This document shows, in pieces, positions 42,449 through 44,918 of a DNA stretch of 44,918 nucleotides. The DNA lies in the NCBI GenBank assembly GCA_017304555.1, contig JAFKKS010000165.1, forward strand, positions 7,605-52,522. Direction: 5' to 3'. The notes under the pieces are model-generated. The model was not told the DNA's origin. It searched no databases and saw only the letters and a program-made list of their open reading frames with translations. Each line of letters starts with the position of its first letter. Positions within the stretch are counted from its first letter, which is position 1. This stretch comes from Hyphomicrobiales bacterium (GTDB lineage: Bacteria > Pseudomonadota > Alphaproteobacteria > Rhizobiales > Xanthobacteraceae). The translations under genes and the position numbers were made by a program.

Positions 42449-43384
42449 ATGTCGACGATCAGGCGGCTGCTACCTTCGCTCAATACGCTCGTCGCTTTCG
42501 AGGCCGCGGTCCGCTGCGGAACATTCGCACGCGCCGCCAAGGAGCTCGGCGTGACCAGCCCGGCGGTGAGCCGCACGATCGGGCGGCTTGAACTTCATCT
42601 CGGCGTGCCGCTGTTTCGCCGAACCCCATCCGGCGTCATCCTAACGCGCGACGGCGACGATTTGTTCTCCGGAGTGTCGCAGAGCTTTGGCGAGATCGAG
42701 CGCACACTCGCGCGCCTGAAAGGCGGCAAGCCGCATGTGCGCCGGCCCATCGTCCTCTCCGTTTCATCGGCGTTCGCCACGCATTGGTTTATGCCCCGCC
42801 TCACGCGATTCAAAGCGCGATTTCCTGACGAGGAAATTCAGTTTCAACTCATCAGCGGGCCGTTAGGCGGATCGGTCGACAATGCCGATATCGCGATGCG
42901 CTTCGACCACAAATTGGCGAGCCATCATCGCGTTTATGCGCTCATGCCGGAATTGCTCCTGCCGGTTCGATCTCCGCAAGATCATAAAAACGAATCCCAG
43001 CGTAGGCCGTCGACGCGTTCGACAAGGACTATGATTACCTTGGGCGGCGGCCAGTCGGAGTGGGCAAATTTTTCGTTCTTCTTTCCGCCGGCTGCAAAGA
43101 CGGAGGAACTGACGTTTTCGGATTATTCGCTTGTCGTACAGGCCGCGTTGGTTGGGCAGGGAATTGCGTTGGGTTGGTTGAACGTCGTGTCGCACCTTCT
43201 CGCATGCGGCAGTCTTGTGCCGGCCAGCACGAAAGTGCTCTCAACCCATCGCCGTTGCGAGCTTGTGACCCGCCGGGGTGGCCTCCGCGTTGCCGACGAG
43301 ATCTGCAATTGGATTCAAGCCGAGCTTCGCGACGACATCTCCGCGATAAAGACACGGTATCCGGCCATTGATATTCCGATTTGA
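42449..43384 (+). CDS. LysR-family transcriptional regulator (GcvA-like)
   Basis: This is a 311-residue LysR protein of the GcvA-like branch. The HTH lies at residues 9-70 (LNTLVAFEAAVRCGTFARAA, SPAVSRTIGRLELHLG, LFRRTPSGVILTRDG). The effector domain has the DIAMRFDH and VVQAALVGQGIALGW motifs. It is divergent from the HAD-DAO pair and probably regulates it. A poorly conserved, Arg/Ser-rich stretch at about 185-200 falls in a loop that is variable in the family, and its length is normal. Confidence 0.88.
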   Translation: MSTIRRLLPSLNTLVAFEAAVRCGTFARAAKELGVTSPAVSRTIGRLELHLGVPLFRRTPSGVILTRDGDDLFSGVSQSFGEIERTLARLKGGKPHVRRPIVLSVSSAFATHWFMPRLTRFKARFPDEEIQFQLISGPLGGSVDNADIAMRFDHKLASHHRVYALMPELLLPVRSPQDHKNESQRRPSTRSTRTMITLGGGQSEWANFSFFFPPAAKTEELTFSDYSLVVQAALVGQGIALGWLNVVSHLLACGSLVPASTKVLSTHRRCELVTRRGGLRVADEICNWIQAELRDDISAIKTRYPAIDIPI

Positions 43385-43459
43385 TGACAAAATCGCCAGA
43401 AATTGGATAGGCAATGCGGGCTGAGCTATTGGAAGAACGAGTTGATCTCGTCATCTATG

Positions 43460-43793
43460 CCGAAGCCGGTGATGAACTTTGCAGCCGAAGCCGCATCGCG
43501 GAACAGGGGCAAAGTGCTTTGGTGCATCACGCGGCCGGACTTGTACGCTCAGGCGTTGACGCAAGCCGGACTGGCGCCGGACCGTGTGATCTATATCGCG
43601 GCCGGCGATGACAAGACCGTGCTGGCCTGAATGGAGGAAGGGCTGCGGCATGGCGACCTCGCCTTGGCGCGGTCGCCCGTATGTCGATGACTGCTTCGAG
43701 CTGACTGCAACTCGCCGCCGAGGGGAAAGTACCGTCGGCATCGCACTGCGGCGCTGGCGCCGGTGGATTCGGCAGACTAAAAGAGGCAAGTAG
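43460..43793 (+). pseudogene. imuA: Remnant of imuA (RecA-like SOS mutagenesis gene)
   Basis: From about 43508 one frame reads GKVLWCITRPDLYAQALTQA and continues GLAPDRVIYIAAGDDKTVLA, a strong match to ImuA. Translation then hits TGA at 43628-43630, where a cysteine codon (ACMEEG) is expected. MEEGLRHG follows, and further pieces appear in other frames: ARMSMTASS, LQLAAEG and VGIALRRWRR before 43793. The N-terminal third is missing. Several frameshifts and a nonsense change make it clearly dead. ImuA normally acts with ImuB and DnaE2 in mutagenic repair, and neither gene is present here. Confidence 0.8.
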
Positions 43794-44042
43794 AAACCAT
43801 GGAGTTTTCATCACATGATACTCACTGGCGAGTCACATTCCACCCTGTACTAAAGCTCCGATCTATCTCCACAATTAAGCACGATTTCTTGTCCAGCGGA
43901 CCTTCGCGCAGATTCGAGAATCCGCATGACGTCGGTCTGATAATCATTGCGCAGCGTTATCTCTCTTCTATCGTCGCTCACATAAGGTCGAGGCCGACGA
44001 TGGCGATCAAACGCGCGAAGATTTTGAGCGATGTCGAGATAG

Positions 44043-44200
44043 ACCGCGGCGACGTGGCTGATGCAAGCGGGTGTCAACAAATGGGAAGCCGCGGGCTTCC
44101 TCGGCATGAGCGTTGAGATGCTCGACCGCGTCTACGGACACCATCATCCCGATCATTTGCGGCAGGCCGCGCATGCGCTTGGCTACGGCCGGCGTCAATC
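44043..44200 (+). pseudogene. C-terminal fragment of a tyrosine-type integrase
   Basis: After a stop at 44040-44042, the frame reads [20 protein letters not shown] then [20 protein letters not shown]. This is the C-terminal catalytic end of rhizobial phage-type integrases, with the nucleophilic tyrosine in RVYGHHHP. The arginine and histidine boxes upstream are missing; only a possible start-like peptide (MAIKRAKILSDVEI at 44000) precedes it in another frame. The fragment sits 67 bases from a tRNA 3' piece, as expected for an integrated element. Confidence 0.8.
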
Positions 44201-44266
44201 TTTGGCCATTTCATTGGCTAGTCGGCAAATGCCGCGCGCGCCTCAACAACAAGTCATTGAAAATGC

Positions 44267-44315
44267 TGGTGGGCCCGGGAGGACTCGAACCTCCAACCAG
44301 ACCGTTATGAGCGGT
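44267..44315 (-). other. 3' fragment of a tRNA gene (CAT anticodon), attachment-site core
   Basis: On the minus strand this reads as the 3' two thirds of a tRNA. The parts are CCA end (44267-44269), acceptor strand CGGGCCC (44271-44277), T-arm GGAGG-TTCGAGT-CCTCC (44278-44294), variable loop, and anticodon stem with loop CTCATAA (44305-44311), so anticodon CAT (Met or lysidine-Ile). Similarity ends at 44315, inside the anticodon stem, and no D-arm or 5' acceptor strand follows. Such truncated tRNA copies are left by integration of islands into tRNA 3' ends. Confidence 0.75.
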
Positions 44316-44326
44316 TGGAATTATCG

Positions 44327-44352
44327 GAAACGCCATGAAAATATGGCGTTTC
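44327..44352. repeat. Perfect 10-bp inverted repeat beside the tRNA fragment
   Basis: GAAACGCCAT (44327-44336) and ATGGCGTTTC (44343-44352) with a 6-base A/T-rich loop. It lies 12 bases from the end of the tRNA piece. It could be an integrase or excisionase binding site, or a terminator. Confidence 0.55.
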
Positions 44353-44389: not shown

Positions 44390-44411
44390 GGTCAATCGGT
44401 GGTCAATCGGT
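44390..44411. repeat. 11-bp tandem direct repeat (GGTCAATCGGT x2)
   Basis: Two exact adjacent copies occur at 44390-44400 and 44401-44411, followed by a partial third (GGTCC). They are close to the att-like tRNA fragment and may be arm-type recombinase sites or simple slippage. Confidence 0.55.
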
Positions 44412-44431
44412 GGTCCACTCGCTACCGCCAT

Positions 44432-44918
44432 CTAGGCGGTTGGACGGCTTTCGTCCTCGTCCGCAATCGACGGCTTGTCGACGTCGGCGTGACCTTCGAG
44501 GTTCAGCTGAAACTGGGCGTTCTCCGTTGGCAGAGGAAGATCAGCCACGCTGATACACTTAATGTTTTCCTTCTTAGCAAGAGTCGCCACGTCGAAGTCG
44601 TCGGAATAAATTTCCGTCGCACCGGCTACCTTGGCGATCGCGACTATTTGCCGGTCGAACTTCACCTTCGCCCATACGGCATTGGAGGCGCCGCGTTTAT
44701 TTTTCCCTCTAAGGGCCTCGCGCGAGATCGCGGCGAGTTCGATCGCAGCGCGCGCGTCAAACGCCTCGATCCGAAAGATCGCGTATTTGTTGATGTACTC
44801 GACTATTTGCCCGGACGTCTCGGCGCCTGCGCGTATTAGGATCTCGCTGAGGGCAGGCGTGGGGATGACGATTTTCTCGCGGGCCTTCTGAAGCCGCGAA
44901 ATGAGAAGCTCGATCCGC
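44432..44918 (-). CDS. PIN-domain protein, partial at the right edge
   Basis: The frame is open from the window edge to the TAG at 44432-44434, giving 161 residues without the N-terminus. The visible order is [20 protein letters not shown] then SEIL (conserved acid), [23 protein letters not shown] (conserved aspartate) and [15 protein letters not shown] (acidic pair). These are the metal-binding acids of PIN ribonucleases such as VapC toxins. The frame is continuous with no internal ATG near its start, so the true start lies outside. No antitoxin gene can be seen; it would lie beyond the edge. It lies on the island side of the att-like site. Confidence 0.8.

Follow-up and report, generated by a model that had tools for sequence, protein, structure and literature searches.

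Integrases of the lambda-like type bind short repeats on either side of the core, and pairs of putative arm sites are described in the accessible part of PMC10865867. In the islands covered by Islander, a displaced 3′ tRNA fragment and a regenerated tRNA mark the two ends, and the Islander table in the available text holds 3919 islands with 125 tandems of two or more (PMC4383910). In Sinorhizobium meliloti, att repeats of 46–49 bp represent the 3′ end of a tRNA, and repeated integration at one tRNA gene is reported in the accessible sections of PMC11476347, although the hot spots given there are other tRNA genes (Lys CUU, Asn GUU) and not the target of the integrase treated here. Symbiosis islands of Bradyrhizobium sit at a tRNA-Ile, with the anticodon left unstated in the excerpts available of PMC9174649 and PMC11837538. 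The closest characterised relative of the system described below is Rhizobium phage 16-3 (DQ500118), which according to a table in the accessible part of PMC12429752 integrates in tRNA-Pro(CGG), and whose record annotates an attP of 260 bp with a core of 23 bp. In those texts on tandem islands and on phage 16-3, as far as they were accessible, no description was found of a CAT-anticodon tRNA as the target of a 16-3-like integrase.

The site analysed here lies near the right end of a 44,918-nucleotide stretch of DNA (the window), which is the final 44.9 kb of contig C457, position 44918 being the contig end, in a draft genome of a Hyphomicrobiales bacterium (4.56 Mb, 542 contigs, 89.6% complete). 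As a phage attachment junction it is of an ordinary kind, belonging to the type formed by integrases like that of Rhizobium phage 16-3. We consider it probable that positions 44267–44314 are a hybrid att site produced by two successive insertions into the 3′ half of one tRNA, by an older element A on the left and a younger element B on the right, the latter most likely being a prophage whose integrase end lies on contig C119 of the same genome. The C119 integrase is 39% identical to that of phage 16-3 over residues 1–384 (93% of the query), i.e. it shows the whole-length similarity that defines the 16-3-like group, of which the integrase remnant in the window covers only the C-terminus. In phage 16-3 as on C119, the int gene runs into the attachment site and the core lies in the 3′ half of the tRNA, and similar repeats stand at −81/−69/−54 and +86 of the phage site; this likeness of the arms is visible only in a motif scan, with free local alignment giving a score of 12 that ~4% of shuffles reach. 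Unlike phage 16-3, the locus described here has a CAT-anticodon tRNA as target, other arm sequences, a dead integrase stump in the window and, on our reading, a hybrid site.

The core (44267–44314, minus strand) is a displaced 3′ tRNA fragment with a CAT anticodon, and all of its 48 bp (48/48, 100% identity) equal positions 29–76 of the tRNA at C119:14258–14333, the sole intact copy in the assembly and on a different contig from the window. The original prediction had been right about a 3′ tRNA piece with a CAT anticodon but gave its length as 49 bp, whereas the 49th base mismatches; the second core copy for which it proposed a search exists as an exact match, namely the 3′ part of the intact C119 tRNA. 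A 24-base core probe allowing up to three mismatches found one match in the window versus none in 100 shuffles (0/100). No complete tRNA was called in the window by ARAGORN or by Rfam at the gathering threshold, Rfam at an E-value threshold yielded matches far under gathering scores and nothing else, and the 5′ part of the tRNA is absent from the window. The assembly holds one displaced and one intact copy of the core, with no further displaced copy in either the window or the assembly. ARAGORN labels the intact C119 tRNA as Met; we label it tRNA-Ile2-like (CAU), by resemblance only. Three additional CAT tRNAs are present in the genome (30 loci examined out of 40 tRNA hits), and two of these, going by resemblance, are presumably the initiator and elongator Met species. 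A fourth CAT-anticodon tRNA (locus L024, C187:7506–7577) has an odd acceptor end and could be a contaminant or phage-borne.

Left of the core, the tyrosine-recombinase C-terminus that had been recognised in the original prediction is borne out by alignment. The remnant (44037–44225, plus strand), which we assign to element A, retains only the C-terminal 48–63 residues and has an in-frame stop codon near its start, within the first conserved box. Its part at 44037–44180 is 65% identical over 48 aa to residues 336–383 of the 411-residue C119 integrase (tblastn, E 2e-15; 74% nucleotide identity between remnant and C119 gene), and the full remnant shares 57% identity over 63 aa with the integrase of a relative, G025; none of the preceding 335 integrase residues was found upstream. 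Judged from these alignments, it is the dead C-terminus of an integrase of the same family as that on C119. Inside it lies a putative left arm-type repeat pair (44198–44219, plus strand), ATCTTTGGCC and TTCATTGGCT, at −69 and −57 from the tRNA 3′ end, i.e. at motif positions common to C119, two sites of G023 and the IMG/VR contig L079.

Further to the left, 43385–44036 separates the remnant from the last intact gene, a LysR regulator ending at 43384. This interval includes a frame-broken fragment adjoining the integrase stump (43478–43846, plus strand). A fuller copy is found elsewhere in the genome, on contig C489 (L096), as an ORF of 264 aa to which the fragment is 42% identical over 130 aa; no NCBIfam model matched the fragment, which we take to be ImuA-like. 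Comparisons were made with a set of 61 genomes, i.e. the bacterium's own and 60 relatives. Left of the junction, the gene cluster counts as accessory, given that only 6/61 genomes, including the bacterium's own, have its HAD gene at the cut-off applied, and DNA synteny with G001:C104 stops at ~42.9 kb, inside the LysR gene; 43385–44266 is therefore seen as a zone of scraps. With this cluster accessory, no empty site was found among the relatives, a genus-level search located no second genome of the genus that could have provided a close empty site for comparison, and in G001 the cluster and the tRNA lie on separate contigs. When the flanks of the tRNA at 30 loci (29 relatives and own) were compared with the window, only unspecific LysR matches appeared beyond the tRNA and remnant region. 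The 90-bp 3′ flanks of the tRNA differ by eye in all loci, of which L048 holds only 2 bp, and the gene upstream of the tRNA, presumably encoding a SIMPL-domain-like protein, is kept in 8/29 relatives.

Right of the core, a putative right arm-type repeat pair assigned to element B (44395–44415, plus strand) consists of ATCGGTGGTC twice (44395–44404 and 44406–44415), at +81 and +92 from the core end. It is followed by a PIN-like ORF on the minus strand (44432–44917) whose 5′ end is cut by the contig end and which is the putative last gene of element B. This ORF matches the phage family phrog_21691 (E 6.9e-30) and, below the curated cut-off, Pfam PIN (E 0.01); it is 65% identical over 156 aa to an ORF on IMG/VR contig L084, and two Pseudomonas phages carry a 31% relative, one of them annotated as a nuclease. 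Between core and repeats lies the 10-bp inverted repeat of the original prediction, a perfect stem with a 6-base loop (44327–44352; halves 44327–44336 and 44343–44352). About 0.014 such stems are expected per 310 bases under a first-order Markov null, and the whole window has seven such hits at three places, so that the hairpin is uncommon but by itself not striking. The 125-base stretch containing it has a fold z of −3.3. Possibly it is a terminator that ends transcription behind the PIN-like ORF, a call that a consensus scan did not make. As for the idea that it belongs to the att junction, the hairpin is real but not part of a conserved site, with nothing comparable in nine other right flanks beyond what composition leads one to expect.

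The intact tRNA on C119 is faced by the 411-aa tyrosine integrase (PF00589, E 2.4e-07; phrog_1, E 2.3e-26), which ends about 9 bases away from it. Past the integrase follow genes for a ParB-like protein, an RNase H, an S24-type repressor, a DnaB helicase and an HNH protein up to the contig end, a gene content that looks like a prophage early region. Seen from the core, the genes for DnaB and HNH and the PIN-like ORF of the window all run in one direction, which is what one would expect if that ORF closes a late operon. To the left of the C119 core, beside the integrase, ATCGGTGGTC occurs twice, and this pair is identical in sequence to the right-hand pair of the window, which makes four identical copies of the 10-base repeat, two on each contig. 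Although core fragment and intact tRNA are on different contigs, the orientation of both ends is consistent with one element between them, and we infer that C119 is the integrase-bearing end of the element to the right of the window's core. The prediction that such an element would end at an intact tRNA is in this way supported by the C119 tRNA and its intact integrase in the predicted orientation, if on a separate contig. Attempts at bridging the two contigs gave no link: compared with the other contigs, the C119 end showed nothing beyond a 28-base match, no overlap with any of three terminase contigs was seen for the end of C119 or of the window, and the genome bin did not contain the N-terminal part that the PIN-like ORF lacks.

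The correspondence between the arms was quantified by local alignment of 18 left flanks with 10 right flanks. The left flank of C119 and the right flank of the window score 20, which none of 20,000 shuffles of this pair reaches (0/20,000), the largest score in a pooled null of 2,000 shuffles being 23, whereas the window's own left and right flanks score only 10, the mean of their shuffles being 8.7 (sd 1.5). Six control pairs, each taken to represent the ends or arms belonging to a single element, score 12, 13, 18, 20, 21 and 21 and the remaining 173 flank combinations 9.8 on average with a maximum of 17, two of the controls (12–13) falling within the range of non-pairs. The left flank of C119 also scores 17 with the right arm of G010 and 18 with another place in the window. 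With a repeat motif that was picked after inspection of the data, left pairs at −68/−69 and −56 to −58 were found in 5/17 sites and right pairs at +80 to +82 and +91 to +93 in 5/10 sites having a right flank, compared with chance pairs in 5/287 control segments on each strand; the sites of G011, G025, L080, L088, L091 and L092 did not show the motif pair. Read most simply, these patterns would mean that the two arms flanking the window core come from different elements, one having supplied the left arm and another the right. The core is read as a hybrid site because the left pair belongs to the integrase remnant and the right pair matches the repeats on C119. What is new here is that the two elements would be distinguishable by their arm repeats, which would also tie the younger of them to C119.

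The same core is found in other genomes as well. The tRNA is matched in 56/61 genomes (E ≤ 1e-8), and 3′ fragments starting at position 28, 29 or 30 number seven in 5/61 genomes (one in the bacterium's own genome, two in G010, one in G011, two in G023 and one in G025). The truncated core recurs, in other words, in 4/60 relatives, of which G023 and G010 have stacked copies, and since the break is the same in all seven fragments the truncation point is taken to be a feature of the site and not a random deletion. In G025 the fragment lies 13.1 kb from the intact tRNA, next to which there is a 66%-identical integrase; G023 has one intact copy and, ~70 kb off, two fragments with a 1.4-kb stub between the two cores; and a 1.75-kb stub separates the two fragments of G010. 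In G010 and G011, both nearly complete drafts, 3′ fragments were found and no intact copy of the tRNA, which probably reflects an assembly gap at the repeated core.

Among six IMG/VR loci with a relative of the integrase, the core is present in L079, L080 and L082 and absent from L078, L081 and L083. On L079 (10001–12486), a single core with unlike arms is faced by two related integrases from both sides, a second hybrid junction. L080 and L082, whose integrases are 68% (281 aa) and 52% identical to that of C119, have the appearance of complete attP sites, with an arm on either side. In both L080 (1–976) and L082 (10001–11282), the integrase gene stands across the core from where it lies on C119. 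G025, G023, L079, L080 and L082 all share the core and have a related integrase or related arms, but the arm sequences differ.

On this basis, the following history may be proposed. Element A, with a tyrosine integrase like that of Rhizobium phage 16-3, would have inserted first at the tRNA and then decayed and been mostly deleted, leaving beside the core only the end of its integrase gene and the arm repeats of the integrase side. Later, prophage B with a related integrase would have entered the regenerated tRNA, its integrase exchanging strands within the shared tRNA half, probably in the anticodon stem-loop, where the crossover is placed because identity ends at position 29. An intact tRNA would thereby have been rebuilt at B's integrase end, now on C119, and the 48-bp 3′ copy displaced to B's far end in the window, with B running rightwards to the intact tRNA; the outcome would be A's arm on the left of the core and B's arm on the right. 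We infer the order of events, the place of the crossover and the joining of window and C119 as two ends of one prophage from this arrangement. An older or tandem insertion on the left, as had been suspected from the integrase scrap, agrees with the unlike arms, the match of the right arm to C119 and the stacked cores of G023 and G010. The junction is, however, the remnant of a stack and not a complete tandem array, because the older element keeps only an integrase remnant of 48–63 residues and there is no further core copy. Displaced fragment and regenerated tRNA mark the two ends just as in Islander islands, but unlike in Islander arrays the older island is a stump and the younger has its two ends on different contigs, which keeps the array from being closed (accessible text of PMC4383910).

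An unlikely alternative is that the hybrid site is real and that a phage other than the C119 prophage, though related and sharing the arm specificity, lies to the right, with the C119 prophage ending elsewhere, in unrecovered parts of the genome. An assembly in 542 contigs that is 89.6% complete leaves room for this, no contig links the window and C119, and arms of relatives can be close, as the score of 17 for G010 compared with 20 illustrates; on the other hand, the assembly holds exactly one displaced and one intact core copy, and the 10-base arm repeat is identical all four times. More improbable is an assembly chimera, i.e. arms of different strains or places joined across the 48-bp repeat to give a hybrid site that occurs in no cell. 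A wrong join at a 48-base repeat in a fragmented draft genome would generate exactly such unlike arms, but stacked cores also lie inside long contigs of G023 (1.23 Mb) and G010 (93 kb), and L079 likewise has the core between unlike arms. Moreover, current assemblers as a rule finish at word lengths above 48.

The mismatch of the window's arms is also what speaks against a single decayed element that would have carried integrase scrap and PIN-like gene together, with the tRNA piece as its attP: attP-like sites with arms on both sides do exist in the family (L080, L082), but both attP controls score 18–21, as opposed to 10 in the window with its null of 8.7 ± 1.5, and we regard this possibility as very improbable. 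Hardly credible, finally, is a second tRNA gene that was deleted and lost its 5′ part by chance, the core having no att function. Nothing specific favours it except that the 5′ part is indeed absent from the window, and it is opposed by the common break point at 28–30 in seven fragments from five genomes as well as by the arm-like repeats that flank the core.

Two successive insertions, with B as the C119 prophage, therefore remain our preferred reading. Phages would, on this view, have docked repeatedly at the CAT-anticodon tRNA of this bacterial group, and arm repeats would allow the two phages behind one junction to be told apart, which is useful for prophage mapping in fragmented assemblies. 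The general idea of tRNA integration is unchanged by this; it is ordinary biology, neatly preserved. Tentatively, and with rather more doubt than confidence, we propose for the 16-3-like group that arm repeats act as element-specific labels at fixed positions (−69/−57 and +81/+92) around a shared tRNA core, in which case one could read from hybrid cores the succession of different phages at one tRNA gene, and use them to pair element ends that lie on separate metagenome contigs.

In a scan of named genomes, a tRNA lies 12–463 bp behind the integrase, and facing it, in 10/10 loci with an integrase relative. Four of these tRNAs have a CAT anticodon (in Microvirga, Methylobacterium, a Pseudolabrys MAG and a Proteobacteria MAG), five are Pro(CGG), all in Bradyrhizobium, and one is Val(CAC), in Acuticoccus. 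As a separate observation, a related integrase (44%) at locus L076 (G003:C26, 1045–2346) stands beside a copy of the 5′ half (positions 1–43) of the same CAT tRNA. By eye, similar repeats flank it on either side, which makes this an element that uses the gene's other half.
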